Both the position numbers and the translations under genes were made by a program. Below the pieces are notes generated by a model, which was given only the letters and a program-made list of their open reading frames with translations, had not been told where the DNA came from and did not search any database. This document shows positions 32,425 through 48,302 of a DNA stretch of 56,786 bases, piece by piece. Within the stretch, counting starts at the first letter, position 1. Each line of letters starts with the position of its first letter. Source of the stretch: Lachnospiraceae bacterium (GTDB taxonomy: Bacteria > Bacillota > Clostridia > Lachnospirales > Lachnospiraceae); contig JAFXXN010000109.1 of NCBI GenBank assembly GCA_017542245.1, positions 1 to 56,786 of the forward strand, in the 5' to 3' direction.

Positions 32425-33753
32425 CTAACGGTAAGTTTTTCCATCTGCCTCAATAGTTACTTTTTCGTCAGCTCCAAGAACAAAGCCAAGACTTAATACC
32501 CACGCTGCTTTTTGGTCTGTAATTTCTGTACCGTTCCCTGTGCGGTATTTTCCGTTTCCTATAGCCTTCCAGTCGCCATTGTCATATGTGTAAGTAATCT
32601 CGGTCCCATCGTCCCTTCTTAAAACAAAACTGTCAACCTTAAGATTTTTAACATTGTAATCTATCTTAAGATCCATTCTTCCTACCGTCAGTTTCAAAGC
32701 GTCAAACTCTATAATCTGTGGCTGAGCATCTATAGCTTTTATACTGTTTGGATTATATTTTTCAAGGATTTTAACCACTTCAGGATTTATCGAATCGAAG
32801 TTACGGTCAAGAGCAGAAACCGGGAGGCGTCCTATTTCTTCTTTTACTTTATCGGCATCCTTCTTATTTAATACCAGGAAGTGAATATCGTCATTTTTAG
32901 AAGGATCATTATCATCCCAGCTCAGCCTTGAAAAGATGAAGTAGAAACAATTGCCGCCTAAATTAGTGAACATGTTGTTCGATTCGTAAAATATAAAATT
33001 TATTTCTTCGCCATCCAATTGAATCTCATGGGTCTGAATCCGTCTTCTAAGACTCATGGCTCCAAGATTATATTCATTCAGTTTAAGCTGTTCTGTTTCT
33101 ACAGGATTTCCGTCCTTATCCCACAAACTGAAAAACAGGTATCCTCTGGAAACCGCTTTATCATAACCGGAGCCTTCATATACAATCCTGTAATTACCTA
33201 TTGGATATTCGGCGCCAACAGATGAAAACCGGACATTTTCCCATATCTCGTCGCTTACCGGTTCACTTATGGGGATGAATTCGTCATTTGTGATGTTATC
33301 TGCTAAGACACCTTCACCGTTAACCTCGTTTTCTGCAGGAATGTCTTCACTATCATTAATATCAGTCAAATCAGATTCTTCGGTTTTTTTAGTGTCACTT
33401 ACGGAACCGTTTTCGACGGTAACTACTTTATCTTCAGCAACGGGAGCTCCTGCCTTATCGTTATCCGTAAAGATTTCGCTAATACCCTGTTCACTGTTGG
33501 AGAAGAAAACATCGTTAAGCAATGAGCTGTTCATAGCCCATACAACACCACCGCTTAAAGCCAGTATGCACACACCGGTCAGTGCAGCTACGGCAACCTT
33601 GGAAATATGCCACTTTCGTCTGCTCGCCTTGGAACTTGTCCCGTCATCGCAACATACGTTTATAACTTTGGTCTTTTCTTCTTCCGGGGCTACCATACTG
33701 TTCATAATGTTTTGATAACTTTTTCTTAGCTTTTCATCTTTTAACTCGTTCAT
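32425..33753 (-). CDS. Membrane anti-sigma-like protein (module 2)
   Basis: This 442-residue protein has a cytoplasmic start of about 50 residues, one membrane helix (about 51-73), an acidic linker and an extracellular part of about 290 residues. The N-terminal M-N-E-L-K-D-E-K-L-R-K-S-Y-Q-N-I start and a V-A-A-L-T-G-V-C helix resemble the DUF4179-type proteins that accompany ECF sigma factors in clostridia. A zinc-binding anti-sigma motif is absent; only a Cys-Cys pair is present. GGAGG lies upstream of the ATG and the gene follows the sigma gene by 14 bases. It probably controls that sigma factor (inference from context). Confidence 0.7.
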   Translation of the reverse strand: MNELKDEKLRKSYQNIMNSMVAPEEEKTKVINVCCDDGTSSKASRRKWHISKVAVAALTGVCILALSGGVVWAMNSSLLNDVFFSNSEQGISEIFTDNDKAGAPVAEDKVVTVENGSVSDTKKTEESDLTDINDSEDIPAENEVNGEGVLADNITNDEFIPISEPVSDEIWENVRFSSVGAEYPIGNYRIVYEGSGYDKAVSRGYLFFSLWDKDGNPVETEQLKLNEYNLGAMSLRRRIQTHEIQLDGEEINFIFYESNNMFTNLGGNCFYFIFSRLSWDDNDPSKNDDIHFLVLNKKDADKVKEEIGRLPVSALDRNFDSINPEVVKILEKYNPNSIKAIDAQPQIIEFDALKLTVGRMDLKIDYNVKNLKVDSFVLRRDDGTEITYTYDNGDWKAIGNGKYRTGNGTEITDQKAAWVLSLGFVLGADEKVTIEADGKTYR

Positions 33754-33767
33754 GATGTTTTACCTCC

Positions 33768-34256
33768 TTAGGCTTTTCCGTCTTTTTTGCGAAGGATATA
33801 TTCCCTTATCTGATCTCTTGCTCTCTGAAGGCGTTTAAAGACCGTATCTTCAGAAATACCCAAAATTTCCGCAATCTCTTTAGCACTGTATTCCTCATAG
33901 TAGTATAAATGTACGACTTCCCTATTCTTTTGATTCAGATTAAGAATTGCTTCTAAAATATAGGGATCTTCATGGGTTTCAGTTTTATTACCTGGAATAT
34001 TTTCCGGAATAACAAAGTCGACTTTTGTTTTCCAGGGACTTCTCCATAAAGACCGGCTTTCATTTATCGCTACCCTTAACAGCCAATTCTTTACATGATC
34101 GTCTGTTTCAAATGTTTTAGAAGTTTTGAGAAGCTTTAAGAAAACGGTCTGTGCGATATCTTCCGCATCATACATATCTTTACATCCTACATAGGCGATT
34201 CTTTTGACATCGTCATAGAACAGATTCACGATACGTGAAAACTCATCATGTTCCAT
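33768..34256 (-). CDS. ECF sigma factor (module 2)
   Basis: This is a 162-residue sigma-70 family factor. Region 2 has Y-D-A-E-D-I-A-Q-T-V-F-L-K-L-L, followed by the region 2.3/2.4 helix with V-K-N-W-L-L-R-V-A-I-N. Region 4 has Y-Y-Y-E-E-Y-S-A-K-E-I-A-E-I-L-G-I-S and V-F-K-R-L-Q-R-A-R. GAGGAGGG lies just before the ATG. It is first in a two-gene operon with the membrane protein above. It resembles the SigW/SigV-type cell-envelope stress group in general layout. Confidence 0.9.
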   Translation of the reverse strand: MEHDEFSRIVNLFYDDVKRIAYVGCKDMYDAEDIAQTVFLKLLKTSKTFETDDHVKNWLLRVAINESRSLWRSPWKTKVDFVIPENIPGNKTETHEDPYILEAILNLNQKNREVVHLYYYEEYSAKEIAEILGISEDTVFKRLQRARDQIREYILRKKDGKA

Positions 34257-34483: not shown

Positions 34484-36994
34484 TTATTTCATTATGTTGA
34501 GTCCGTTGCAGTAAGCTTCTATCTCCTCATCACTTACTACTCCTACGACAAATCCATCGATTACTTCTCCTTCAAGATTATACAAAGGTATTATTTGTCC
34601 TGTTCCCGAGTTTTGGGGCAACCCGATAACTTCTTCTATTGAATTATGTGTCGGAGCCAATTCGTCTTCGTTAACATATCCTAAGTTTCCATTTATACCC
34701 TTTGCAGGGATTAAATCCGCATGAAGCAGTGGATCTCCATATGTTTGCCCGGCTTTATTTGTACAAAGTTCTTGAGCATTACATATTTCATACTCCGTAA
34801 CACCCTCTTGTTTTAATCTTTTATCAAGCTCTTCAATCTGTTTCTGAGTTAAATTTGTATTTTTAACTTTATCATATAAATTCTTTGACACCCCAAATAT
34901 GTCATAGCATTCTCTTAAAGCACGTACTTCATGATTCTGATCCATAACGCAAAGGAACGGATATACATACTCAGATTTTACATAGCTTTCATGGCTGCCG
35001 TCAGGTCTGACAAATCCATATACTCTTGCAATGTATGCTAATTCTTCTTTATCTATATAACAGATTTTTCCATTATTCACTACATCCTTAGCTTGTACTA
35101 TTATCTTACAGTCATCAGCTAGTTTATATCTCTTCTTTTCACCCAGATAGTCGACTTTTTCTTCATACGGGAACCAATGATAATCTTCACAGATAATATC
35201 CCCATTATCCATAGCATATATAACTACATAGAACGAATCATAAGGATTATCCAATCTCATCTGGAACTTATCAGGAGCATTTTCCTTTCTGCTGTACTCA
35301 ACATTTGTTAAATCCGAAGTTGCATCAATCGCATCTACCTGATATGCTTTGGGATTAACACTAAGTATTTGCTCCTTGTATTCATCCAACAATGAATAAC
35401 ATCCTGAAAATGCATTATCTTCAATTTCTTCTCCTGATTCAAGTATTTTTTCTGAAAGTGAAACCTTTAACAAACTCTTGCAATTCATAAAAGCACGTGT
35501 TCCGATTTTTTCCAAAGTAGAGGGACACAGCACATATGTCAGTGAACTGCAACTCTTAAACGCATATTTACCTATCTCAACCAGGCCATCCGGCATATCT
35601 ATTCGGCTTAAATTAGTACATAACTCAAAAGCATCAGTTCCAATCGATTTTACAGAAGACGGAAGTTCAACGACCTGTATCTGAGTACATCCTAAAAAAG
35701 CACGATCATTAATGCGCTCGACGCCTTCCGGCAGTGTGAGTTTTCCGGTACTCTCATCAAAATACTCTTTGTACAGTTCCAATCCATATCCGTTCTTCTG
35801 TTTTGTCTCCGAAATAACATTATCAACATGAATACTTTCATCAACCGATACTGTTTTGTCATGCTTATCCTCCGACACCTCACTCTCTGCATTCGCATTC
35901 TTTGGCGTCAGGAAAAACATAAGGCAAAGTACCGCAACTAACCCTGCTGCTACTGATATCCAGACAGTTTTCTTTTTGTATTTCATAATGTTCTTCACCC
36001 TTTCATTTACGCCGAGCTCACCGAATGAGACCACATTATATGCCCGGTCAAATCCGGATACGCTGCATCCAAAAAGTGTCTCTGCATATCTGGCTCTGGA
36101 CTCGGAATCCATAGTCCTTATAACGCCCTCATCACATGCCAGTTCCATATCTCTGCTGTACATGATAAACGCTACCCATATCCATGGTACAAACCAGTAC
36201 AGTGAGAGCAATACATAAGCTGCAACTTTAAAGAAGTAATCTTTTCTTGCGATATGCTCCCTTTCATGAGCCAGAACATATTTTCTTTGTTCACCGGTCA
36301 CAAAATAATTTAGGTATATACGAGGTCTTATGAGCCCGAACACAAATGCATTCCTGACATAGTCAGTAAGATATACATCATCATAACCTTCAAGCCTTAC
36401 CGCTTCTAAAAGACGTCTTTTTACTTTTATGGCTTTGATAATAGCATATGAGAACATTGCTACTACACCACCCAGCCAAACAAAAGCCAGTATACTGAAT
36501 ATATTGAATCTGTTTTCCTGTTTGGTTTGTGCTGATTTTGATGACAGTGTTTCTTGTGTTGGCTGTATAAGCTCTTCATCATTGAAACTCTTTGATGACT
36601 CAGAATTTTCATACTTATAAGCATTACCACTCTTTAATCCAACAATGCTTTCTGTACTATCCTGATTATCCAAATTATTTTGTGCAGAAACTACACTACC
36701 ATCCTCATTAAGTCCATTATCATATATGACGACTCCGTCAGTTCCCTGTGGCTGTATCATATCCGTACTCTCAGAGTACTCTCTGACCATTTCTTTTATG
36801 GATAACCTAGGTATAACGGCAAAGCTACTTTCTATCGGTATAAATAACAGCAGCCTAAGACCTACCAAAAACCACAATGCACAGATGACAGCTTTTGAGG
36901 CCTTATGGAAGACCAGTCTCAATAACAGCACTATCAAAACTATCACGCCTGAATATATGCCTATTTCAAGCATAGTGGAAAATATTTTATCCAT
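34484..36994 (-). CDS. BlaR1-like M56 zinc-protease receptor with leucine-rich repeat sensor
   Basis: This 836-residue membrane receptor has helices at about 13-30, 36-53, 165-190, 255-278 and 343-362. The M56 protease motif is H-E-R-E-H (243-247), with the third zinc ligand in E-L-A-C-D-E. In BlaR1 this protease is switched on by the outer domain and leads to cleavage of BlaI. Here the outer domain is not a penicillin-binding fold. Residues about 420-535 form five BspA-type leucine-rich repeats (I-x3-A-F-x2-C-x2-L), and the last 300 residues are unrecognised. The ATG at 36994 follows GGAGGAG. It sits 12 bases after the blaI-like gene. The ligand is unknown. Confidence 0.82.
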   Translation of the reverse strand: MDKIFSTMLEIGIYSGVIVLIVLLLRLVFHKASKAVICALWFLVGLRLLLFIPIESSFAVIPRLSIKEMVREYSESTDMIQPQGTDGVVIYDNGLNEDGSVVSAQNNLDNQDSTESIVGLKSGNAYKYENSESSKSFNDEELIQPTQETLSSKSAQTKQENRFNIFSILAFVWLGGVVAMFSYAIIKAIKVKRRLLEAVRLEGYDDVYLTDYVRNAFVFGLIRPRIYLNYFVTGEQRKYVLAHEREHIARKDYFFKVAAYVLLSLYWFVPWIWVAFIMYSRDMELACDEGVIRTMDSESRARYAETLFGCSVSGFDRAYNVVSFGELGVNERVKNIMKYKKKTVWISVAAGLVAVLCLMFFLTPKNANAESEVSEDKHDKTVSVDESIHVDNVISETKQKNGYGLELYKEYFDESTGKLTLPEGVERINDRAFLGCTQIQVVELPSSVKSIGTDAFELCTNLSRIDMPDGLVEIGKYAFKSCSSLTYVLCPSTLEKIGTRAFMNCKSLLKVSLSEKILESGEEIEDNAFSGCYSLLDEYKEQILSVNPKAYQVDAIDATSDLTNVEYSRKENAPDKFQMRLDNPYDSFYVVIYAMDNGDIICEDYHWFPYEEKVDYLGEKKRYKLADDCKIIVQAKDVVNNGKICYIDKEELAYIARVYGFVRPDGSHESYVKSEYVYPFLCVMDQNHEVRALRECYDIFGVSKNLYDKVKNTNLTQKQIEELDKRLKQEGVTEYEICNAQELCTNKAGQTYGDPLLHADLIPAKGINGNLGYVNEDELAPTHNSIEEVIGLPQNSGTGQIIPLYNLEGEVIDGFVVGVVSDEEIEAYCNGLNIMK

Positions 36995-37006
36995 AGGCTC
37001 CTCCAT

Positions 37007-37375
37007 TTACTCGTTCTGTGCACGGATGGCATCTATCATCTTCTGGATCTCATCGATATCCTTTTCTGTCATCTTGCCACTCTTTGAAAAGGCTGCAAGG
37101 AAAGCAGGGCATGAGCCGTTGAACTTGGTGTCGAGGAGATCATTTATCTCCGATACCTGAGCCTCATCCTCCTTAACGAGTGCCCTGACTATCATCTTTT
37201 CCGTTATAACTACTCCGCGCTCCGTCAATCTCTTGATGACAGTATATGTGGTGGATGGCTTCCATCCGAGCTCTTCAGCACACAACTGAACTAACTGTCC
37301 GCTCTTTATAGGCTCATTTTTCCACAGTATCTTACAGAAACGATATTCGCTTTCAAATATTTTTGGTGTATTCAT
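37007..37375 (-). CDS. BlaI/MecI-family repressor 1
   Basis: This is a 122-residue winged-helix repressor. Residues 5-75 form the DNA-binding domain (E-S-E-Y-R-F-C-K-I-L-W, then W-K-P-S-T-T-Y-T-V-I-K-R-L). The C-terminal dimer helix contains K-F-N-G-S-C-P-A-F-L-A-A-F, typical of the family. BlaI proteins repress their own operon until the receptor protease removes them. Three dyads at 37445-37524, one over the -10 box, are the likely operators. It is the first gene of an operon with the LRR-type receptor. Confidence 0.92.
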   Translation of the reverse strand: MNTPKIFESEYRFCKILWKNEPIKSGQLVQLCAEELGWKPSTTYTVIKRLTERGVVITEKMIVRALVKEDEAQVSEINDLLDTKFNGSCPAFLAAFSKSGKMTEKDIDEIQKMIDAIRAQNE

Positions 37376-37430: not shown

Positions 37431-37524
37431 AAATGTCGACATTTAATCTAATGTGTTAGATTATAATTTTAATCTAACACATTAGATTTTATTTGTCAAC
37501 ACTTTTTTATCTAATTCTTTAGAT
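37431..37524 (-). promoter_or_regulatory. Promoter and three operators of the first BlaI system
   Basis: The minus-strand promoter is TTGACA (37494-37499), 17 bases, TAGATT (37471-37476). Three dyads of the form ATCTAA-N4-TTAGAT lie at 37445-37462, 37471-37488 and 37509-37524. The first two are exact inverted copies of each other, and the second covers the -10 box. A further perfect palindrome AAATGTCGACATTT (37431-37444) abuts the first. Confidence 0.85.
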
Positions 37525-37778: not shown

Positions 37779-39887
37779 TTATGTTAAAACGTATGCTATA
37801 AGTAATGGACCAACAAAGATGACAAGTCCTGTGACTATGGTGTGGCTGAGTGACCTGAGTTTTCGAGATATAAATCTGAGAAAAAGAAGTACTGCTATCA
37901 TTATAAGATATTTTAGCACCATATAGAAAACTATACAACCACCTATTGAAAATCCAAGTCTTTCAAATATAGTTCCTTCAAGGTTTATTACCGACTGGGT
38001 AGGATAACTGAGACCGGCGGTACCATATACATTTAGGATACTAAAAAAATATGGAAGATAATTGAGACAGTAAATAATAAGCGCCACGAAGCTTCCAAGC
38101 AGGATTTTCTTTATATATAAGGATCTTCTGCCATATAACGTCACCGAAGTCACTCTGTCCATATAAAGCCTGTCATCTCCAGCAAAGATATATGTGAGCG
38201 CCAATACCAACATAATCCCGGCCGTTATCGCCAAAGTTAATTCCTTTCTCTTTGCCAATGGATCAAATGTAAGGAAGCGGTAGCCTGTGTCATAGACTAT
38301 ATATCCTCCATTTTCGCGTAATGTCTGAATTCTTGATGAAAGAATCTCTAAGCCGATGCGTGGTTTAAGTTTATCCTGATACTGCTTTGATATTTCTCCT
38401 GCAAGTTCCGGCGGTGACTCCAAAAGGATATTCTTAAGCTCCTTTTCTATCTCCGCATAACGTTTTCTTTCCTCTTCTATCGCCCGCAGAGTTGCGTCCG
38501 TTATTTCTCCTTGAAACTTTATGGCGTAATTCTTGTAATATATAGAGTTCTCGTTTTCAAAATACTCTCTTTCAGGTTCGAAGTTCATAAATTGAAATAC
38601 CGCAAAGAAAGCTATAATCCACAAAGTCCCTCCACAGATCAGGAGCTTATAAGTTTCATGACCCAAAACAGATATTGATTTCGGTCTGATTTTACTGATC
38701 AAACGATGTACCAGGCTCTCTTCATTTGCCAATATGCCTTGAAGCAGATTTCTTTTAACTACTACTGTAGTCTGCCTTGAATATGCCTTTACTGCAAGAG
38801 GCACAACTGCAAGAGTCAAGAGTCCAAGCGAGCATATCACAAAAGTTAATCTGTTTACAGGATATCCGAACATACTTACATTTCCATAAATAGAAAGATA
38901 CCGATTAGGATTTAGGAACGATATAAAGTTAAATTCCTTTAGGAATGCCAGATAACTGTTATCACTTATAAGATAATACAGAACAGCCTCCACTCCGAAT
39001 ACTGCTGCCACTCCCATGTACACAAATACAGATGACTTCAGTATTGAGGCTATCAGGAAAACAATAATGCTCATAACTGTTGTAGCTAATGCCAGCATTA
39101 TGAAATAAACCAGCATATAGCCAAGTACCGACATGGTCATAGTACACCCCTTTAGCCCCACTACTGATTGTACCGATCTTGTAATATCACCTGTTCCAAA
39201 TATATATCCACAAGTAAAAAATGCAGCTACGGATATAATAAAAGATACAATAAAAGATGAACATGCACATACCAGTATTTTGATAAAACCGTGAGTCCCA
39301 CGTCCCTTTTCCATAGTAAAAAGAAGATTCAGCTGTCCGGATTCCCTGTCTTTTAGGATCATCTCATTTATCATTATCAAAAGGACTAAAATGATAATAA
39401 TCCCTGTGACGCCATTCCCCGACCAGAGTTCCATTCCTTTTGACGGTCCCGTTTCTATGGTGATTTTTCCTTTTAATTCTTCATATGCTTGTGCCGTCTT
39501 TAACGCATTCCTATATGAAAAACTATTCTCGTCGGCAAATATCGATACGGAAGTAAGCCTTTTTGCAGAATCAGTTATTTCTGTAAGGTAATCCTCATAT
39601 GATGCCTGCTCCTGCAGTTCGCTCCTTATTGTTTTGTTTAAGAATGCCTCTCTGCTAAAATCCGTTTCATCATACTCTTTGTCAGAGTACATGGAAAGTG
39701 CAGCTTCCGGACCCATATCGGATACTTCTTTAAAAGCCTCCTTGTAATCCGGTGCCTGCACTAAAAATACCATTCCTCTTGATTTCATATTCAGGACTCC
39801 GAAGGTCACAAAACAGGCTATAACAAGAGTCACGATAATACCCGGAGTTTTCCAGAGGCGGATGAATTCGTTTTTAAATATTCTCAT
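37779..39887 (-). CDS. ABC-2 type transporter permease
   Basis: This is a 702-residue membrane protein with about 12 helices in two similar halves. Each half begins with a helix next to the cytoplasm (R-I-F-K-N-E-F-I-R-L-W at the start; S-V-L-G-H-E-T-Y-K-L-L near residue 400), then a large extracellular loop of about 100 residues, then five helices. This is the layout of ABC-2 permeases duplicated into one chain. It would pair with the ATPase encoded upstream. A repeat of about 70 bases lies between the two genes. The substrate is unknown; peptide or lipid export is the usual role of this class. Confidence 0.83.
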   Translation of the reverse strand: MRIFKNEFIRLWKTPGIIVTLVIACFVTFGVLNMKSRGMVFLVQAPDYKEAFKEVSDMGPEAALSMYSDKEYDETDFSREAFLNKTIRSELQEQASYEDYLTEITDSAKRLTSVSIFADENSFSYRNALKTAQAYEELKGKITIETGPSKGMELWSGNGVTGIIIILVLLIMINEMILKDRESGQLNLLFTMEKGRGTHGFIKILVCACSSFIVSFIISVAAFFTCGYIFGTGDITRSVQSVVGLKGCTMTMSVLGYMLVYFIMLALATTVMSIIVFLIASILKSSVFVYMGVAAVFGVEAVLYYLISDNSYLAFLKEFNFISFLNPNRYLSIYGNVSMFGYPVNRLTFVICSLGLLTLAVVPLAVKAYSRQTTVVVKRNLLQGILANEESLVHRLISKIRPKSISVLGHETYKLLICGGTLWIIAFFAVFQFMNFEPEREYFENENSIYYKNYAIKFQGEITDATLRAIEEERKRYAEIEKELKNILLESPPELAGEISKQYQDKLKPRIGLEILSSRIQTLRENGGYIVYDTGYRFLTFDPLAKRKELTLAITAGIMLVLALTYIFAGDDRLYMDRVTSVTLYGRRSLYIKKILLGSFVALIIYCLNYLPYFFSILNVYGTAGLSYPTQSVINLEGTIFERLGFSIGGCIVFYMVLKYLIMIAVLLFLRFISRKLRSLSHTIVTGLVIFVGPLLIAYVLT

Positions 39888-40040: not shown

Positions 40041-40898
40041 TCATACCTTATATAAATATACATCCTCAAGGTTCGGTTCCATTTCCACATACTCGTAAGC
40101 CTCAGGTACCGCATCACTCACTACACGGATGCGTACTCTGTCACGCTCCTTCACCATATCCCCGACCTTGAAATTTTTTTCCAGATCCGGTATATTTTCT
40201 TCGCCCGTTATGATTTCGAAAACCTTTCCCTTTATACTGTCACACAGCTCCCATGGGGCTCCGTCAGCCACTATTCTTCCGCCGTTCATGATGATCACCT
40301 TATTGGCAATAAACTGAATGTCTGAAACCACATGTGTTGCTATAATCACAATCCTGTCGAACGCTATCTTCGAGACTATGTTTCTAAACCTGATCCTCTC
40401 GTTCGGATCAAGGCCTGCAGTCGGCTCGTCCAGTATGATAATAGATGGCTCGCTTAGTAGTGCCTGAGCGAGTAGTGCACGCTGCTTCATGCCACCTGAA
40501 AATGCAGAAAGCTTCCTATCCATTACATTCTCCAGATTTACCTTTTTTACTATGTCTGATATCTGTGTTGCTGCAATTCTTTTGTCAAGTCCCTTTAGGC
40601 CTGATATGTAAAGCAGGAAGCGCCGCAAGGTAAATCCCGGGAATATCTGCTGTTGTTGAGGAACATAACCCAAATGCCGCCGATATTCCCGCCCAAGTTC
40701 GCGGATATCTGTCTTTTCAAATGTCAAACTCCCGGATGTTTGTTTAAGGTTATCGGTCATGATATTCATAAGCGTTGACTTGCCTGCTCCGTTAGGTCCA
40801 AGAAGGCCATATACCCCAGGGGTGAATTCATATGTAAATTCTGTCAGTGCTTTGTTGGTGCCATATTGCTTGCTGATTGATTCACTACATAGCTTCAT
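40041..40898 (-). CDS. ABC transporter ATP-binding protein
   Basis: This is a 285-residue ABC ATPase. Walker A is G-P-N-G-A-G-K-S, the Q-loop V-P-Q-Q-Q-Q, the signature F-S-G-G-M-K-Q-R, Walker B I-I-I-L-D-E-P-T-A-G-L-D-P and the H-loop A-T-H-V-V-S-D. The type resembles BcrA/CcmA-like exporters that work with ABC-2 permeases. The start codon lies inside the last codons of the preceding lipoprotein gene (13-base overlap). Its ribosome site GAGGTGA belongs to the repeat at 40903-40950. It is the middle gene of lipoprotein, ATPase, permease. Confidence 0.93.
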   Translation of the reverse strand: MKLCSESISKQYGTNKALTEFTYEFTPGVYGLLGPNGAGKSTLMNIMTDNLKQTSGSLTFEKTDIRELGREYRRHLGYVPQQQQIFPGFTLRRFLLYISGLKGLDKRIAATQISDIVKKVNLENVMDRKLSAFSGGMKQRALLAQALLSEPSIIILDEPTAGLDPNERIRFRNIVSKIAFDRIVIIATHVVSDIQFIANKVIIMNGGRIVADGAPWELCDSIKGKVFEIITGEENIPDLEKNFKVGDMVKERDRVRIRVVSDAVPEAYEYVEMEPNLEDVYLYKV

Positions 40899-43671
40899 TT
40901 GTCACCTCATCCGGCTGCTTTGCAGCCACCTTCCCCTCAAGGGGAAGGCTTAAAAAGACCTCATCTGTTTCCTGCTGCCACTTCTTGAGCCTCTCTGAAA
41001 AATCCTTTTTGATAATTATAGTCTCGTTATCGTATGCCAGATTCCGCAGTTTTAATATTTCCACAGGATATTTAAGTGTGGACATATTTACCGGGTCAAA
41101 GTTACTTGCATAGTATTCCTTCTTTGCTTCAATCGACTCAAAGCGTGTAAGATAACTATCCTTATCCGGATATACCAGCTCCATTACGCCAAATTGAAGC
41201 CTGCTAAGGTAGCCTACCGCATATTTTTCTTTTTCGGTATCGTAAGCAAATCCGTCCTTTAGAATCACATTCTCCCCATAAACTGCGAGCTTTGCGTATT
41301 CCGGATCCGTCATTATCAGCTCTATCATTTTAAACGCACCGTCCGGATTATGCGAGCTTGCCTTTATGGCTATTGAAGAATTAAATCCGGGTTCGACAAT
41401 TCCACGATAGGTTCTAATGTAATAATCGTCTTCATTTAATAACGATGTGTCAAAATCATCACAGAATGCCACAGACCATTCATCCTTTGATTCTTCAAAT
41501 CCCTTTGTGCGCGGGTTTATTACCATTCCGGCTTGAGCCAGACTGTTTAGTGCCGTCAGACCGTTCACATATTCGTCCAGACCAGTCAGATTTCCAAAAC
41601 CATCATCTGTGTAGTATATACCATACGTGTTGCTATGTATGCCATACATACTCACAAAACGATCATCCCCGTAATACAGCTTATTTTCAGCTGATACAAA
41701 TGGGGTCAGACCCCCAATAGTATCATCAAAATTTTGCAGCTGCTCTTCCGTATAAGCACTCTTCTTAAAAACTATCGAAAAGCATGAATTCCTAAGTGCA
41801 GGGTTTGGGATACAATATATGCTCCCGTCCACTCTTACAGAATCCCATAGTTCTTCCGGTATCATATCATAAAGCTTGCTGCCTTTAAGGTAGTCATCCA
41901 ACTTTAAAAGCTTATTCTTCATTATGGCCTCATAAGCAGGATCCCAGGCGGTTTCATCAGTCTGGCTGCTCGGCATACCGGTATAAACCACATCCGCACC
42001 GGCTTTCATCATAGCCTTTCTGTAATTTAATGTTTCCTCTAAAGTATCATGCTGCTGAATGAGTATTTCATATGGATACCCATCCTCCTTGAGCTTTTTG
42101 TTTATCCGTTCCGTTCTCTTATCAGCTTCATCCCCTATCCGCATCAAAGCCCAAACGATAGTATTTTCATCTATATCATCCATGCTTTCGTCTGCTTCAG
42201 GCTCAGATACAAGAAGATTTTCTATATATGTTTTTGAATCCATATCGTTTGAATTATTGTTTTGGCGGTTTTTATCTGTATTTTCATTTTCCGTGTTACC
42301 GTTTTGCATATCATTTTCGGAATTATTATCATTTACATTTTCATCATGTGAATCGTCGGGTTCCACACGGATAGGCGCATCCCGGGTAATCATTATCTTA
42401 GCTGATGAAAGGTTTCCTGATAAAAAGCTTTCCTTTTCAATAACACATTCATATTGTTTTCCGTCGGCTTCATAAAGATAATAAATCCATTTTCCGATTA
42501 TTGCATATATTCTGTAAATGCCTTTTCCGTTTAACTTTCCACCGGCAACATACTGAATATCACCGGTATTCATATCCTTGTACCAGACATTTTTCCCATT
42601 TACCATATAAATGGCATTGTTATAAACATATTTCAATGCATTATTCTGATTACAGCCGTCAAACGATAATTCATCAGGCCTAAACCGTGCTATTTCTTTG
42701 CCACCCTTTAGGAAAACTATCTTTTCTTCGTCTTCTATTGAAATATAACCATATCCATTAATGAAAATATTCTCAGCATATCCGCCTTCCCAGATTTTAG
42801 CCTTTGTTTTGTTCTTTATATCATATTCATAAATCTGCGTAACCGCGTTCTTTGATACATCTTCATAGTACTTATCCGGGTCTTCATAATCGGAATACTC
42901 AATTTTATTAAGCGTATAATATGTCAGATAGTACAGTTTATTATCATAAAATCCACAGTTCCAGCAATACGAATCATAATGCTCCGAAAAAGAATCCATG
43001 AATTCTATCTCATTCGTAGCTGTATTTACAAGATATATCCCTGATTCTCTTTTTTCTTTATTTCCATACGAGAATGCACCTCCACTTCCTTCGAAATACT
43101 CTTTTTTGTCAAGATCCATAGGGTTCATGTAACAGGCGGCCAGATATCCATTGTCATATTCCGAACAGAGAATGCTCTGAACTCCCTCTAATTTCACAAG
43201 TTCTTTTCTGTTCCGTCCGTCAAGATCTGTGCGGACTACATATTTATCGAAAGCCAATCCCGCATCACTATCACGTGAAGTAATGAAATATATACTGTCA
43301 CCCGTCATAAACGGAGTACGGGCATCATACCCAAGATATGCATCGCATACATTTGTGGTTCCTTCGGTTGTTCTTTTATGCGGACAGTTTGGCTTCGAGC
43401 ACAATACTATATCCGTGCCTGTTTCCGCATCAAAGAAATGAGCTATGCAATTATCTATATAGCACATACCCTTTGAAGAATATGATTCTACCGGGCTAAA
43501 ATTGGAAAGGACAAGATTTTCTTCTGACGTTATGCCAATTGAATCTACATTTTCCTGCCCCGGTTTGCTGCCGTTTTGGCTATCCGACGGATTGTCACTG
43601 CCAGATTTACAGCCGGCCATAATAAATACTAGCAAAATAACAAGCAGAATTATAAGGTTTTGGGTTTTCAT
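40885..43671 (-). CDS. Lipoprotein fusing a propeller-like domain and a solute-binding domain
   Basis: This 928-residue lipoprotein has a signal peptide ending L-V-F-I-M-A-G-C. Residues about 45-430 show repeated Tyr-rich strands such as D-S-I-Y-F-I-T-S and N-K-L-Y-Y-L-T-Y, as in DUF5050-like beta-propellers. An Asn/Asp-rich linker follows (about 455-490). Residues about 510-910 look like an extracellular solute-binding protein of ABC importers (Y-R-K-A-M-M-K-A-G-A-D-V-V-Y-T-G, then I-Y-C-I-P-N-P-A-L-R-N). The last 19 residues are encoded by a REP-like repeat. The ATG at 43671 follows GAGGA. A BlaI-type operator lies over the -10 box. Its partner ATPase and permease look like an exporter rather than an importer, which is odd. 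Confidence 0.72.
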   Translation of the reverse strand: MKTQNLIILLVILLVFIMAGCKSGSDNPSDSQNGSKPGQENVDSIGITSEENLVLSNFSPVESYSSKGMCYIDNCIAHFFDAETGTDIVLCSKPNCPHKRTTEGTTNVCDAYLGYDARTPFMTGDSIYFITSRDSDAGLAFDKYVVRTDLDGRNRKELVKLEGVQSILCSEYDNGYLAACYMNPMDLDKKEYFEGSGGAFSYGNKEKRESGIYLVNTATNEIEFMDSFSEHYDSYCWNCGFYDNKLYYLTYYTLNKIEYSDYEDPDKYYEDVSKNAVTQIYEYDIKNKTKAKIWEGGYAENIFINGYGYISIEDEEKIVFLKGGKEIARFRPDELSFDGCNQNNALKYVYNNAIYMVNGKNVWYKDMNTGDIQYVAGGKLNGKGIYRIYAIIGKWIYYLYEADGKQYECVIEKESFLSGNLSSAKIMITRDAPIRVEPDDSHDENVNDNNSENDMQNGNTENENTDKNRQNNNSNDMDSKTYIENLLVSEPEADESMDDIDENTIVWALMRIGDEADKRTERINKKLKEDGYPYEILIQQHDTLEETLNYRKAMMKAGADVVYTGMPSSQTDETAWDPAYEAIMKNKLLKLDDYLKGSKLYDMIPEELWDSVRVDGSIYCIPNPALRNSCFSIVFKKSAYTEEQLQNFDDTIGGLTPFVSAENKLYYGDDRFVSMYGIHSNTYGIYYTDDGFGNLTGLDEYVNGLTALNSLAQAGMVINPRTKGFEESKDEWSVAFCDDFDTSLLNEDDYYIRTYRGIVEPGFNSSIAIKASSHNPDGAFKMIELIMTDPEYAKLAVYGENVILKDGFAYDTEKEKYAVGYLSRLQFGVMELVYPDKDSYLTRFESIEAKKEYYASNFDPVNMSTLKYPVEILKLRNLAYDNETIIIKKDFSERLKKWQQETDEVFLSLPLEGKVAAKQPDEVTNEAM
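40903..40950. repeat. REP-like repeat overlapping the lipoprotein gene end and the ATPase ribosome site
   Basis: The sequence contains the hairpins GGCTGC-TTT-GCAGCC and CTTCCCC-TCAA-GGGGAAG and ends in CACCTCAT. Repeats of this kind (CACCTCATCCG...CCACCTTCCCC) are widespread in Clostridia (from memory). Read on the minus strand it codes for L-P-L-E-G-K-V-A-A-K-Q-P-D-E-V. Confidence 0.75.
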
Positions 43672-43720: not shown

Positions 43721-43779
43721 GTCTATCATCAATAGACTATCTGTATTTTTAATCTATCACTTATAGACCAAAATGTCAA
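43721..43779 (-). promoter_or_regulatory. Promoter and two BlaI-type operators of the lipoprotein-ABC operon
   Basis: The minus-strand promoter is TTGACA (43774-43779), 17 bases, TAGATT (43751-43756). One dyad, TCTAT-N5-ATAGA (43753-43767), covers the -10 box. A second, GTCTAT-N5-ATAGAC (43721-43737), lies just after the predicted start of transcription. The promoter is nearly identical to that of the second blaI at 46622-46650. Confidence 0.85.
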
Positions 43780-43872
43780 CTCCTTTTTTTCCATTTTTCA
43801 ATACTTTCCCAATGCTCTAGCGTCATCATATTCCGTTGGCTTCGGAGCCACCTTATGACAATAGAAGACAAA

Positions 43873-43900
43873 CAAAAAACAGACAACAAACGTCGTCTGT
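43873..43900 (-). terminator. Terminator of the RCC1-type BlaR operon
   Basis: Arms ACAGAC / GTCTGT (43879-43884 and 43895-43900), extended by three more positions with one mismatch, are followed on the minus strand by TTTTTTG. It lies 49 bases after the receptor stop codon. Confidence 0.75.
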
Positions 43901-43948
43901 CTTTTACCAACATTTTATCAACATTTTATCAATATTTATTCAATTTTC

Positions 43949-46219
43949 TCATCTATAGAAGTTTAACACTTTGACTCCTTCTGCAGTGAGCCCAACAATG
44001 TACTGGGAATTACAGTCTATGGCAAGTACATTTCCCCAGGAATCAAGTTCAGCCTGGATTTCTTTTAGAGAAAGAACTTCAGTGTCTTCCCTAAAGGGCT
44101 TCACATTCTCTGTTGCATAATGAACATGTCCGGAACTATCCAAACCAACTATGTTCCCATACCTGCAAGATATATCTACAATATCGGTCCATGTCTGAAC
44201 CTTCCACTCATTTGTCTTCTTTAAGCACTGGACGCTTCCATCTTCAAGCAGGGCTATTACATTCTCACCTTCGCCATACAGTGCTTTAACATTTTCCCAC
44301 AACCGATAATTATTATACTTATTCAATGTACTCTTTGACGGATAATAATCCGGCGTGATAACGGTACCATCCTCCAGTAAAATCATGGTAATATTGTTTT
44401 CAAAGCCCTGAACTGCCTGGATAGCCTTCTTTTCACCGGCATAAATTCTATTACCATTCTTGAACACTCTTCCGTATTTATCTACTGAAATATAAGTACG
44501 AGCGTAACTGCATTGCAGGTCAGATACATCCTTCATCAACTCAAGATCCTGAGCTATCAGAGAATCCACTTTGCCTGTTCCTGCGTTGCCACCAAGAATA
44601 GCGGAGTCTCTATACTGTGTTTTCTCTACTCCCCGTACATCTTCATGGCTCAACGGGAACGTGGAATATACCATGCCTTTATCATCTATTACCGTAATGA
44701 ACGTATTATCATCGGCTATCTGTTTGATGCTTCCATCTGTTGGGATATTACCTTTTTTAGCCTCTGTTGTTTCACCAGAATAATCATAAAGTCCTTCATA
44801 TAAGACAAATTTTCCGTCAAGAATGTAGGCTATTTCATTGTTGTTGGTAATTCGAATATCATTTACACTTTTCAAACCATTCCAGATATTCTGGCCATCA
44901 CCACTCACCTTAGTGTTTATAGCATTCCGGTCGCTATCATGAATGCCAGTGTTTTGTGCATTACCACCGATATGCTGAGTATCATTTACATCGGAATACG
45001 AAGTGTTATCTCCTGCCAAACCGGATAATGCAGTTCCAAGTATATTTTCATTTCCTGCCTTAGGATCCGTCATTGTACATGCTGAAATTAAAACACAAAC
45101 AAGTATTAATGAAATAATCGCCCTAAGCTTTGGCTTCCTGTACTCTGCGATATCCTTAACTCTCTTCTTCACTGATATTTCCCCAAATGCCAACGAGCAC
45201 AGGAATGGATTGTTTTGAGAAATACTACAGGTCAGAAGTGCCATAGCATAACCTTTTATCTCTTCCTTTGTTTTATCCTTTATTACCGCCTCATCGCAGG
45301 CAGCTTCCACATCCTTAACAAATAGATAATATGATATCCATACCAAAGGATTAAACCAATGAAGTGCCAGAATGGTAAGCCCTAACGGTTTCCAGACATT
45401 GTCACCTCTTTTAATATGTCTCTTTTCATGTGACAGAACAAATCCAAGCGTTTCTTCATCCAGACCGTTCGGGATATATGTCTTCGGATTAAATACTCCT
45501 AAAACAAAAGGTGTACGTATATTTTCGGATATATATACCTTCCTGCAGTCCGCACTTAGTTTGTAATCAAATAAACTAATAGGAACTGCATTTAGCAGTC
45601 TTCGTTTCAACCTTATGTATGATAATACATAGTAGGTGAGCATTATGAAGCTTACGCCTAACCATATATATGCAAGGATATCTAAAACGTTTGTTTGGGA
45701 TTGTTCGTCTGTTATCGGCTTTGTGTCAATTTTAGAGTCTGCTAAAATTTCAATGCCATTTGTATCAACTGATGGTGAGGCAATATCATTCTCCATCATT
45801 TTACTGATGTCACTATTACTTACTGTTTCTAAAGAATCTATTCTATAATCCGAATCAGTATATTCTTCTACTGCATGACTTTCTTCCGTGTTTCCTTCCG
45901 TGCTTTTTTCCGTATTTATATTACTTTGATAATCGATTTTAGAAATATCGACTGCATCAATCCCCTGTTTTCCTTCATTCCTGCTTTCTTCTTCATTAAG
46001 AATGCTTTCCCAGATAAATAATCCTGATGTGTCCGGCAGAATGCTGAAGCTTGCTTTAATCGAAAACGGGCACACTAACCTAAGGGCGACCAAAACCCAG
46101 AGACCACACCTTAACCACTTGGGTGCTTTTCCGGACACCGCCCTTAATAGAATAACCATGCATACCACAATGGATGCATTAAGGCTCATATTAAGAACAA
46201 AAAGGAAAATATCAGTCAT
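43949..46219 (-). CDS. BlaR1-like M56 zinc-protease receptor with RCC1-like sensor
   Basis: This 756-residue receptor has membrane helices at about 10-27, 37-52, 180-200, 280-300 and 365-381. The M56 motif is H-E-K-R-H (264-268), with E-A-A-C-D-E further on. The last helix ends L-I-S-A-C, which resembles a lipobox. The outer domain (about 400-756) is not a penicillin-binding fold. It shows repeated RCC1-like units, for example V-I-A-L-L-E-D-G-S-V, M-I-L-L-E-D-G-T-V and N-I-V-G-L-D-S-S-G-H-V, each after an aromatic-rich strand. It starts one base after the blaI-like gene. It should relay an outside signal by proteolysis to the repressor (family knowledge); the ligand is unknown. Confidence 0.8.
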   Translation of the reverse strand: MTDIFLFVLNMSLNASIVVCMVILLRAVSGKAPKWLRCGLWVLVALRLVCPFSIKASFSILPDTSGLFIWESILNEEESRNEGKQGIDAVDISKIDYQSNINTEKSTEGNTEESHAVEEYTDSDYRIDSLETVSNSDISKMMENDIASPSVDTNGIEILADSKIDTKPITDEQSQTNVLDILAYIWLGVSFIMLTYYVLSYIRLKRRLLNAVPISLFDYKLSADCRKVYISENIRTPFVLGVFNPKTYIPNGLDEETLGFVLSHEKRHIKRGDNVWKPLGLTILALHWFNPLVWISYYLFVKDVEAACDEAVIKDKTKEEIKGYAMALLTCSISQNNPFLCSLAFGEISVKKRVKDIAEYRKPKLRAIISLILVCVLISACTMTDPKAGNENILGTALSGLAGDNTSYSDVNDTQHIGGNAQNTGIHDSDRNAINTKVSGDGQNIWNGLKSVNDIRITNNNEIAYILDGKFVLYEGLYDYSGETTEAKKGNIPTDGSIKQIADDNTFITVIDDKGMVYSTFPLSHEDVRGVEKTQYRDSAILGGNAGTGKVDSLIAQDLELMKDVSDLQCSYARTYISVDKYGRVFKNGNRIYAGEKKAIQAVQGFENNITMILLEDGTVITPDYYPSKSTLNKYNNYRLWENVKALYGEGENVIALLEDGSVQCLKKTNEWKVQTWTDIVDISCRYGNIVGLDSSGHVHYATENVKPFREDTEVLSLKEIQAELDSWGNVLAIDCNSQYIVGLTAEGVKVLNFYR

Positions 46220-46220
46220 A

Positions 46221-46577
46221 TCAGATTCCCTCTATCATTTTCTTTATCTCTGCTATGTCCTTTTTACTAAGCTTCTTCTCGGATGTAAATGCTGCTATAA
46301 ATGCAGGCAGGGATCCATTGAAGGTTTTGTCCACAAATTGAGTTGACTGGATATTTAAAACTTTCTCCTTTGAGAGAAGTGAACTCACCATTCCGCCATC
46401 ATTTTGGAATATCCCTCTGTCACAGAGTTTTTTAAGAACAGTGTATGTTGTTGACTTTTTCCACTCAAGTCTTTCCTCGCAGAGCTTCACTAGATCTCTG
46501 GAATGAAGTGGCTCATTCTCCCAGATGATATCTGCAAACTTCTCCTCTGCTGTTGCCAAACGCATACTTGTGTCCAT
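46221..46577 (-). CDS. BlaI/MecI-family repressor 2
   Basis: This is a 118-residue winged-helix repressor, with T-A-E-E-K-F-A-D-I-I-W at the start, W-K-K-S-T-T-Y-T-V-L-K-K-L in the DNA-binding domain and F-N-G-S-L-P-A-F-I-A-A-F in the dimer helix. It is similar to but clearly distinct from repressor 1. The ATG at 46577 follows GGGAGGG by seven bases; the frame is open a little further but that start has no ribosome site. A dyad TCTAT-N5-ATAGA covers the -10 box of its own promoter, and a nearly identical promoter drives the lipoprotein-ABC operon. Confidence 0.92.
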   Translation of the reverse strand: MDTSMRLATAEEKFADIIWENEPLHSRDLVKLCEERLEWKKSTTYTVLKKLCDRGIFQNDGGMVSSLLSKEKVLNIQSTQFVDKTFNGSLPAFIAAFTSEKKLSKKDIAEIKKMIEGI

Positions 46578-46621
46578 TATGATACCCTCCCACACTAAAA
46601 TCATATCCTCTTACAATCTCT

Positions 46622-46650
46622 AATCTATCACCGATAGACCAAAAAGTCAA
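46622..46650 (-). promoter_or_regulatory. Promoter and operator of the second blaI-blaR operon
   Basis: The minus strand reads TTGACT (46645-46650), 17 bases, TAGATT (46622-46627). The dyad TCTAT-CACCG-ATAGA (46624-46638) covers the -10 box. Across 30 bases this region matches 43751-43780 at 26 positions. Confidence 0.85.
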
Positions 46651-46655
46651 GTTCT

Positions 46656-46700
46656 AATTTTATCTTTAAGTCACTTTTTTACCCACTTAAAGATAAAATT
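46656..46700. repeat. TTATCTTTAAGT palindrome, copy 1
   Basis: Perfect 16-bp arms (46656-46671 and 46685-46700) flank a 13-base loop. It lies between the end of the AAA ATPase gene and the -35 box of the second blaI promoter. Confidence 0.9.
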
Positions 46701-46724
46701 GGCGACAGAACAGTTCTGTCGCCA
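46700..46724 (-). terminator. TGGCGACAGA-type palindromic terminator, copy 1
   Basis: Perfect 12-bp arms TGGCGACAGAAC / GTTCTGTCGCCA stand around a single central base. The minus strand continues with ATTTTATC. It lies seven bases after the ATPase stop codon. Confidence 0.8.
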
Positions 46725-46730
46725 CAAAAA

Positions 46731-48161
46731 TCAAACTTTTTCGAATAAATCATCCAGCGTAACTTCCTTACCAAAATAGTTGCTGTACTTGTTCTTTTTT
46801 ACACCAAAAGTAGTAACCATTGTCAGTAAAAGCGTTTTAGTTGTTTTAGTCTTATTTCTGAAAACAGCAATTTTATTTCTTAAATTCTCATCATCTTCTT
46901 TTTTTATTTCATATTGCTGTACGGAATGCTTTATCTCGCAAATATTTATTACCCGGTCTCGTCTGTCTATCAATAAATCTATCTGAGCCCCTTTTTCATC
47001 AGCATTTCCTTGACTGCTCCATGAAGAGACCTCAGAATATACACCTAATATCCCCAGTTTCTTTTTTATCTGTTCCATATGATCCTTGCATACCTGTTCG
47101 TATGTAAGTCCTGCCCAGACATTTCTGGCCGGATTATCGGTTGTATTGCTCCAGAAATGCTCATCTTTACCATAATTATCCCTAATAAACCGGAAGTAAA
47201 ACATTGAATAATAGTCGGATAACTGGTATGTTTTCTCTCGTTTTTTCATCCCGTACATATCATTAATTCTGATAAAACCGGATTTTTCAAGATTTGCAAG
47301 CATTCCGGACAATACACCATTAGATTGTAAACCGGTTTCCTTTACTATTTCTTCACGGGTAAGGCCACTTCTTTTTTTACTCAAAACCTCAGCTATCTTA
47401 ATATACTGTTCACTATTTGAAAACAGTGTTTTGTACAAATGCTCAAATTCATCCCAAAGCTCTGCTCTTTTCGCAAAAAAAATCGCATCAATATTTTCAT
47501 TAAGAGTAAGCTCATTATCGAGAAGTCTCAGATAAAACGGAATACCGCCCATAATCATATAACACTGAACAATATCATATCTTGACCAGAATATATTACG
47601 CGATTCAAGATATTCTTCAGTATGTCTAAGATTGAACGGTTCTAAGTAAATACTACGAGTTTGACGATTGAATAAACCTCCCTTGTTTTTTTCAATTTTT
47701 TCAGAAATCCATGATGTTGCCGAGCCACAAACAATAAATACCAGGTTTTTCCTCGAAGCCCCCCATGAATTCCAAAACCACTCGAAAGCCGGCAAAAAAC
47801 CTGATCTCTGTTTATCCATCCATGGCATTTCATCAAAGAATACTACTTGCTTTTCATTCTCATTTAGTGTTTCAAGATACTTTCTGAGATCAAAAAAGGC
47901 TTCAGTCCAGTCTTTAGGAATTTCATACTTGGTGCAGGTAGCATCATTCAGTACAAGGTTAAAGTTTTTGAGTTGTTCCTTGGTCGTTTGCTTCTCCGAT
48001 CCGGTAAACTTGAAAGCATACTTGTTGCTGAAGTATTCATTTATCAGAAACGTTTTCCCGACTCTTCGTCTTCCATAAACAACTAACAGCTGTGCTTCCG
48101 TTTCCTGCATCGCTTTATCAAGCTTTTTTATTTCCTTCTCTCTTCCTATAAGTCCACCCAT
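46731..48161 (-). CDS. AAA ATPase of the ATPase_2/DUF234 type
   Basis: This 476-residue protein starts with G-R-E-K-E-I-K-K-L and has Walker A G-R-R-R-V-G-K-T (about 30-37) and Walker B V-V-F-F-D-E-M-P-W-M-D. An H-T-E-E-Y segment and a winged-helix-like region (L-T-R-E-E-I-V-K-E-T-G) follow. The C-terminal part resembles DUF234, with I-D-L-L-I-D-R-R-D and C-E-I-K-H-S suggesting a PD-(D/E)xK nuclease-like core. Such genes usually stand alone and their role is unknown. GGGGAG precedes the ATG by eight bases. Its promoter is built into two copies of a 15-bp palindrome, and a third copy lies downstream. Confidence 0.87.
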   Translation of the reverse strand: MGGLIGREKEIKKLDKAMQETEAQLLVVYGRRRVGKTFLINEYFSNKYAFKFTGSEKQTTKEQLKNFNLVLNDATCTKYEIPKDWTEAFFDLRKYLETLNENEKQVVFFDEMPWMDKQRSGFLPAFEWFWNSWGASRKNLVFIVCGSATSWISEKIEKNKGGLFNRQTRSIYLEPFNLRHTEEYLESRNIFWSRYDIVQCYMIMGGIPFYLRLLDNELTLNENIDAIFFAKRAELWDEFEHLYKTLFSNSEQYIKIAEVLSKKRSGLTREEIVKETGLQSNGVLSGMLANLEKSGFIRINDMYGMKKREKTYQLSDYYSMFYFRFIRDNYGKDEHFWSNTTDNPARNVWAGLTYEQVCKDHMEQIKKKLGILGVYSEVSSWSSQGNADEKGAQIDLLIDRRDRVINICEIKHSVQQYEIKKEDDENLRNKIAVFRNKTKTTKTLLLTMVTTFGVKKNKYSNYFGKEVTLDDLFEKV

Positions 48162-48178: not shown

Positions 48179-48221
48179 ATTTTATCTTTAAGTCACATTA
48201 TAACTCACTTAAAGATAAAAT
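48179..48221. repeat. TTATCTTTAAGT palindrome, copy 2 (contains the -10 box)
   Basis: Perfect 15-bp arms (48179-48193 and 48207-48221) flank a 13-base loop. The loop holds a consensus TATAAT on the minus strand. Confidence 0.9.
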
Positions 48222-48225
48222 TCAA
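48197..48225 (-). promoter_or_regulatory. Promoter of the AAA ATPase gene
   Basis: The minus strand reads TTGAAT (48220-48225), 17 bases, TATAAT (48197-48202). The -10 box lies in the loop of palindrome copy 2, and the -35 box lies between copies 2 and 3. Confidence 0.75.
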
Positions 48226-48230
48226 GAGAT

Positions 48231-48273
48231 ATTTTATCTTTAAGTCACTTTTTTACCCACTTAAAGATAAAAT
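48231..48273. repeat. TTATCTTTAAGT palindrome, copy 3
   Basis: Perfect 15-bp arms (48231-48245 and 48259-48273) flank a 13-base loop whose sequence is the same as in copy 1. Confidence 0.9.
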
Positions 48274-48275
48274 AA

Positions 48276-48302
48276 GCGTCAGAGATGTGTGATTCCTGTC
48301 GC
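48276..48302 (-). terminator. TGGCGACAG-type terminator, degenerate copy 2
   Basis: Arms GCGTCAG / CTGTCGC with one mismatch surround 13 bases. The minus strand continues with TTATTTTATC. It lies 44 bases after the helicase stop codon. Confidence 0.55.

Follow-up and report, generated by a model that had tools for sequence, protein, structure and literature searches.

A BlaI-type repressor of a Lachnospiraceae bacterium is predicted to control its own receptor operon and a neighbouring lipoprotein-ABC transporter operon

A stretch of 56,786 nucleotides from a Lachnospiraceae bacterium (contig JAFXXN010000109.1, positions 1 to 56,786; hereafter the window) carries on its minus strand a gene pair for a BlaI-type repressor, BlaI-2, and an M56 peptidase receptor, BlaR-2, and downstream of this pair, behind a promoter of their own, the genes for a large lipoprotein and for the ATPase and permease of an ATP-binding cassette (ABC) transporter (Table 1). 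The reading frames of the lipoprotein and the ATPase overlap by 14 bases. Inspection by eye of ribosome-binding sites and orthologues places the probable true starts at 43671 for the lipoprotein (listed as 43707) and at 46577 for blaI-2 (listed as 46604). BlaI-2 aligns with positions 3-114 of the 115-position winged-helix profile PF03965 (Penicillinase_R), above the cut-off. BlaR1-BlaI pairs are familiar above all as switches that respond to beta-lactams. In this bacterium, of gut type, a relative of the penicillin-resistance switch appears to control both itself and the adjoining ABC transporter, together with the surface lipoprotein of the latter.

Table 1. Predicted genes and control elements of the two transcription units, followed by the first BlaI system of the window
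Feature	Position	Strand	Remarks
blaI-2 promoter	46622..46650	-	TTGACT, 17-base spacer, TAGATT
Putative BlaI-2 operator at blaI-2	46623..46639	.	GTCTATCGGTGATAGAT on - strand; 1 mismatch to GTCTAT-N5-ATAGAC
blaI-2	46221..46577	-	BlaI/MecI-type repressor, 118 amino acids; Penicillinase_R E 2.2e-22; clade in tree
blaR-2	43949..46219	-	M56 peptidase receptor, HEKRH; C-terminal domain of about 305 amino acids; Peptidase_M56 E 4.3e-47
Terminator-like hairpin between blaR-2 and ABC promoter	43871..43908	-	Consensus scan only
Lipoprotein-ABC operon promoter	43751..43779	-	TTGACA, 17-base spacer, TAGATT
Putative BlaI-2 operator 1, ABC operon	43752..43768	.	Over spacer/-10; 1 mismatch to GTCTAT-N5-ATAGAC
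Putative BlaI-2 operator 2, ABC operon	43721..43737	.	GTCTATTGATGATAGAC on - strand; GTCTAT-N5-ATAGAC, six-base arms
Lipoprotein	40885..43671	-	928 amino acids; C-terminal half like extracellular solute-binding proteins
ABC ATPase	40041..40898	-	285 amino acids; ABC_tran E 6.1e-32
ABC-2-like permease	37779..39887	-	702 amino acids; ABC2_membrane_3 28.5 bits, cut-off 31.6
First system (contrast)	34484..37375	-	blaI-1 37007-37375; blaR-1 with leucine-rich repeats 34484-37006
BlaI-1 dyads x3 (contrast)	37446..37524	.	ATCTAA-N4-TTAGAT; sole exact copies in genome

The promoters of blaI-2 and of the lipoprotein gene are identical at 26 of 29 positions. A preliminary description of the window had counted 26 of 30; the number of matching positions was right and the length was not, and the coordinates that it gave for the two promoters proved correct, both on the minus strand. 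In each promoter TG precedes the -10 box, and the dyad TCTATCAC-N2-ATAGA, already noticed in that description (46624-46638 and 43753-43767), lies across the spacer and the beginning of the -10 box TAGATT. Downstream of this dyad, at a distance of 31 bases, the ABC operon carries a second one that the description does not mention. The blaI-2 promoter has a single dyad, both here and in the related genome G022. The distinct dyad assigned earlier to BlaI-1 was found again, its three exact copies in the genome lying all before blaI-1 (at 37446, 37472 and 37509).

When the genome was scanned with the promoter-wide pattern TTGACNTTTTGGTCTATNNNTGATAGATT, allowing up to three mismatches, only these two promoters were retrieved, and none with the reversed control. 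Short dyads were listed genome-wide in two forms, exact TCTATC-N4-ATAGA and GTCTAT-N5-ATAGAC with at most one mismatch. The former gave 13 strand-matches (11 with the reversed control) at 10 distinct places, three of them in the window; the latter gave nine places (48 with the reversed control), three of them in the two promoters. All the remaining places, seven of seven for the first form (in mechanically found frames of at least 100 amino acids) and six of six for the second, with one place common to both lists, are inside reading frames, so that among the dyads of these two patterns only the three in the two promoters lie outside frames. A scan for the dyad had been proposed at the outset as a check on the regulon; matches to the two listed forms do occur elsewhere, without enrichment, and every one of those places is within a frame. 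The short dyad alone was rejected as proof, since it is not enriched over the reversed control (13 versus 11 and 9 versus 48 in this genome, 5 versus 14 in 24 genomes of the genus), and weight is placed only on the promoter-wide pattern, the position and the conservation.

Across these 24 genomes, a wider promoter pattern with at most three mismatches gave a total of 10 matches in six genomes, and the reversed control none. Five of the 10 stand before genes of the BlaI-2 clade, four before an ABC operon of this kind, and one, a three-mismatch match on G004:C123, faces a contig end. This pattern was composed after the sites of G000 (this genome), G010, G006 and G022:C59 had been viewed; those of G001, G022:C37 and G004 were not used. 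The strict dyad GTCTAT-N5-ATAGAC occurs at five places, four of which precede such an ABC operon (one in G000, one in G010 and two in G022:C37), the fifth being inside a frame.

Among 195 genomes compared, matches to the lipoprotein were present in six and were near full length in four (G000, G010, G006 and G022); the same four are the only ones, among the matches listed and with five candidates scored per genome, that have a full-length BlaR-2 (residues 1-756). Beyond the genus, the 195 relatives yielded a single weak partial match to the lipoprotein (G062). When 397 genomes were drawn evenly from the family, two or more of them belonging to this genus, a match at E 1e-30 was found in the lipoprotein's own genome only. 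A 93%-identical lipoprotein is present in the Lachnospiraceae metagenome-assembled genome RUI091. The four genomes with full-length proteins show three gene orders and keep the sites throughout: G000 and G010 have the same strand and order, blaI-2 and the ABC operon are divergent in G006, and the lipoprotein gene lies upstream of blaI-2 in G022. The site is located before blaI-2 in all four (with one mismatch in two) and before the ABC operon in three. The second dyad of G010 retains its arms with a changed centre. In the shared gap of G006 both promoters have the site, twice and exact on the ABC side and with one mismatch on the blaI-2 side, and G022 has a one-mismatch site between the lipoprotein gene and blaI-2. 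In G022 the pattern search also detected an ABC promoter on another contig, C37, where three dyads, of which the third is imperfect, lie ahead of an ABC ATPase gene. In G006, G022 and G001 the -35 box, the dyad and the -10 box are retained, and the likeness is lost farther downstream. Four related lipoprotein-ABC operons without an adjoining BlaI-2 (the second one on G006:C17, and those on G006:C98, G010:C183 and G013:C153) have no dyad in front (0 of 4); the one on G006:C17 shares its contig with blaI-2.

BlaI-type genes are abundant in this genus, with 10 in this genome (the others being on contigs C88, C180, C141, C203, C72, C106, C86 and C156, besides blaI-1) and 102 Pfam matches in the 24 genomes. 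A total of 89 genes were compared, after the omission of eight weak matches and of five (L094, L098, L116, L118 and L126) that either did not come through the seed search or were removed as duplicates, and whose loci have no such dyad; two of the 89 (L134 and L152) are without upstream sequence. In the tree a single branch separates the five BlaI-2 orthologues from the other genes (support 100/97, one label change; the program warns of few columns). A dyad with at most one mismatch lies within 300 bases of all five, versus three of the 84 other BlaI genes (Fisher p 1e-6), and the exact dyad in the gene's own promoter for three of the five (G000, G010 and G001), versus none of the 84 within 300 bases (Fisher p 9e-5), p values that overstate independence because the orthologues are related. 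If the whole upstream region is counted, the exact dyad is found for four of five, because that of G006 includes the divergent ABC promoter. Within this genome, TCTAT-N4- or N5-ATAGA is present upstream of blaI-2 only (0 of the 9 other BlaI genes).

Other clades carry other dyads, such as TCTAA-N4-TTAGA before 11 of 16 genes of the BlaI-1 clade and GGTCTA-N6/7-TAGACC before 4 of 7 genes of another, often in the same promoter frame. The looser GTCTA-N7-TAGA is common to all five BlaI-2 genes and 6 of 12 genes of a second clade. These clade patterns were chosen after the promoters had been viewed, and the tabulation is descriptive. As far as the 89 genes go, the operator types tend to follow the BlaI protein clades. 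The genus as a whole shows a large expansion of the BlaI family, with dyads largely linked to clades.

BlaR-2 contains the Peptidase_M56 domain (PF05569) with HEKRH at residues 264-268 as its HEXXH motif. The solved BlaR1 chains 8exs and 8exp match residues 143-369 only, and the NCBIfam model blaR1_generic scores 73.4 bits against a cut-off of 400. Sequence searches found no penicillin-binding sensor domain in BlaR-2, a distant fold being beyond their reach, and as none was found, BlaR-2 is unlikely to sense beta-lactams. The receptor had been described as RCC1-type; RCC1_2 gave E values of 0.21 (this genome) and 0.34 (G006) and matched in these two only, below the cut-off. Repeated DG-V motifs can be recognized by eye, and from these and the weak matches RCC1 identity of the receptor domain would be a guess. 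The orthologue in G001 (L091:6763-8598) keeps the M56 part and has an unlike C-terminal end with a weak FG-GAP match (E 0.14), perhaps a receptor domain swapped on the same repressor.

The lipoprotein had been described as propeller/solute-binding, and the second of these labels is supported. A profile of 10 sequences of the C-terminal half matches the solved structures 5mlt, 5suo and 5swa (E 3.6e-7 to 7e-7), supporting a solute-binding half, with no convincing Pfam match to it; for the N-terminal half the profile matched no solved structure and Pfam gave nothing convincing, and a profile of the whole lipoprotein matched no solved structure. In four related operons (L070, L072, L074 and L076), the halves are encoded as two separate lipoprotein-like frames, and in some of these a small secreted-looking protein of 120-150 amino acids was seen by eye nearby. 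As to the transporter, formerly called an ABC exporter, the ATPase and an ABC-2-like permease are present, the permease match being below the Pfam cut-off (PF12698, E 1e-6), and export is one possible direction of transport. ABC-2-like permeases are of a type usual in export.

The shared sites, the uniqueness of the promoter pattern, the clade-linked conservation and the peptidase motif were observed here; binding by BlaI-2 itself, its cleavage, the derepression, the ligand, and the removal of the sensed molecule by the transporter are inferred. BlaI-2 very likely controls both the blaI-2/blaR-2 and the lipoprotein-ABC units, and we consider it highly probable that a BlaI-2 repressor of two units, relieved through BlaR-2, explains the observations as a whole. 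BlaI-2 would act as a winged-helix repressor, dimeric as judged from its family, that binds GTCTAT-N5-ATAGAC-like dyads and represses its own operon through one operator and the lipoprotein-ATPase-permease operon through two. Because the first operator of each unit lies across the spacer and the -10 box, bound BlaI-2 would exclude RNA polymerase, and the second ABC operator may give tighter or cooperative repression of that operon. Upon binding of a ligand to the extracellular domain of BlaR-2, its M56 peptidase would cleave or displace BlaI-2, by analogy with the family, and both operons would then be induced, with a positive loop and an increase in transporter as the result. The regulon of two units and the separate operator of BlaI-1, both predicted in the preliminary description, are supported by the unique promoter pair and the clade-linked dyad.

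The assignment of this half-site and spacing to a BlaI operator is taken by analogy from a published relative, BlaI_0696 of Clostridium thermocellum, for which DNA affinity purification sequencing (DAP-seq) gave a motif in which GTCTAT repeats stand in inverted orientation at a distance of 5 bases, each target having two such motifs; its regulon consists of three non-coding sites, its own included, and the binding was confirmed by gel shifts using single-repeat probes (PMC8457756). In that system too a BlaI-type repressor goes with BlaR1-type receptors. As the motif is the same, the operator type is not new, and the assignment to a BlaI is strengthened. The targets of BlaI_0696 differ from those predicted here, being sensory genes and a hypothetical protein, with no mention of a lipoprotein-ABC operon in the available part of that report (PMC8457756). 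The statement that no system of this make-up had been described consequently has to be narrowed to the target, as the motif and a three-site regulon were known, and in titles and the starts of abstracts, among the matches listed, no description of a BlaI-controlled lipoprotein-ABC operon was found. BlaR1-BlaI and MecR1-MecI likewise have an M56 receptor adjoining a Penicillinase_R repressor whose gene is under its own operator, but differ in operator sequence (compared with that of staphylococci), in the penicillin-binding sensor not found in BlaR-2, and in the second target, here the ABC operon. In joining a receptor-driven switch to an ABC transporter, the system resembles detoxification modules of the BceRS-BceAB type, but these employ a histidine kinase (PMC3023708), and the present system an M56 receptor and a BlaI repressor together with a solute-binding lipoprotein.

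Several observations weigh against control of both units by BlaI-2. The lone dyad at blaI-2, here and in G022, contrasts with the paired sites that the C. thermocellum authors regard as an apparent strict requirement (PMC8457756). The blaI-2 sites of G006 (TCTACGCATGATAGA) and G022 (TCTATAAGTGGTAGA) have one mismatch each, and the exact dyads 5' of the G006 gene are part of the ABC promoter that diverges from it. Kinship links the five orthologues, of which two are identical proteins, and in the 24 genomes the strict dyad turns up less often than the reversed control. G022:C37 has an overlap of 141 bases with the ends of two ABC contigs, and its dyads may control either; permease and lipoprotein genes of this family are present on the two alike. 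TCTAT-N4-ATAGA, with arms one base closer, precedes 14 BlaI genes of the genus outside the BlaI-2 clade, and cross-binding to such near sites is possible. The source assembly, a draft of 4.72 Mb, consists of 203 contigs, with a completeness of 97% and a contamination of 8.6%.

Even if the regulon is real, its purpose could be different, the ABC module being no response to the sensed molecule: the lipoprotein might capture a ligand and the receptor read the loaded lipoprotein, forming a nutrient or signal-peptide circuit. The solute-binding C-terminal half would suit such a circuit, as would the co-occurrence of full-length receptor and lipoprotein in four of four genomes and the case of G001, which lacks a lipoprotein match and in which the receptor end is unlike, although it has the BlaI-2 orthologue with three upstream dyads, two of them exact and the third with one mismatch; the ABC-2-like permease, of a kind usual in export, points the other way, and G001 is a single case with a genome 85% complete. 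On balance we regard this circuit as rather unlikely, though a serious candidate.

Control by BlaI-1 or another regulator and a recent duplication of the promoter were both considered and found weak. One of the nine other BlaI-type proteins, or a TetR-like protein, could own the dyads; the 10 BlaI-type genes of the genome and the 14 genus genes with the same half-site and a 4-base centre speak for this, and the dyad may also resemble the tet operator. That reading is improbable in view of the exact TCTAT-N5-ATAGA, which precedes only BlaI-2-clade genes (none of the 84 others), and of the position of blaI-2 as the sole BlaI gene here with either spacing upstream; BlaI genes commonly lie behind their own operator, and the motif has been reported for a BlaI elsewhere (PMC8457756). 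Copying of one promoter from the other, without shared control, is the least probable of all, for the promoter identity between neighbouring units, which it would explain, is set against divergence downstream of the -10 box in three genomes with retained promoter elements, the changed centre between the same arms in G010, and the tracking of one BlaI clade by the dyad.

With BlaI-2 as the repressor of both units, a wider view may be proposed tentatively, with rather less than even confidence: the genus would run many parallel M56-BlaI switches with private half-site and spacing operators, and in the BlaI-2 channel a non-penicillin receptor domain would drive an ABC transporter whose lipoprotein includes a fused solute-binding part, as a protease-based counterpart of the Bce modules. 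Homologues of BlaR1-BlaI tend to be named as beta-lactam switches; the present pair, for which searches detected no penicillin sensor, seems to regulate a transporter, so that a name of this kind would be misleading. The 89 BlaI genes compared here, dyads being readable for many, form a natural data set from which the DNA code of the repressor family could be derived.

Upstream of the blaI-2 promoter, a 53-base repeat occurs three times (46657-46709, 48179-48231 and 48231-48283), with an internal inverted repeat ATTTTATCTTTAAGT...ACTTAAAGATAAAAT; the copies flank an ATPase_2-like gene (46731-48161), and most of one copy is also present 5' of blaI-2 in G010, where the neighbouring genes differ. 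Following blaR-1, the region 32425-34256 encodes an extracytoplasmic function (ECF)-type sigma factor and a second protein, matching no family, that may be its anti-sigma factor, and pairs of similar appearance by eye adjoin related lipoprotein-ABC operons on G022:C90 and G006:C98.

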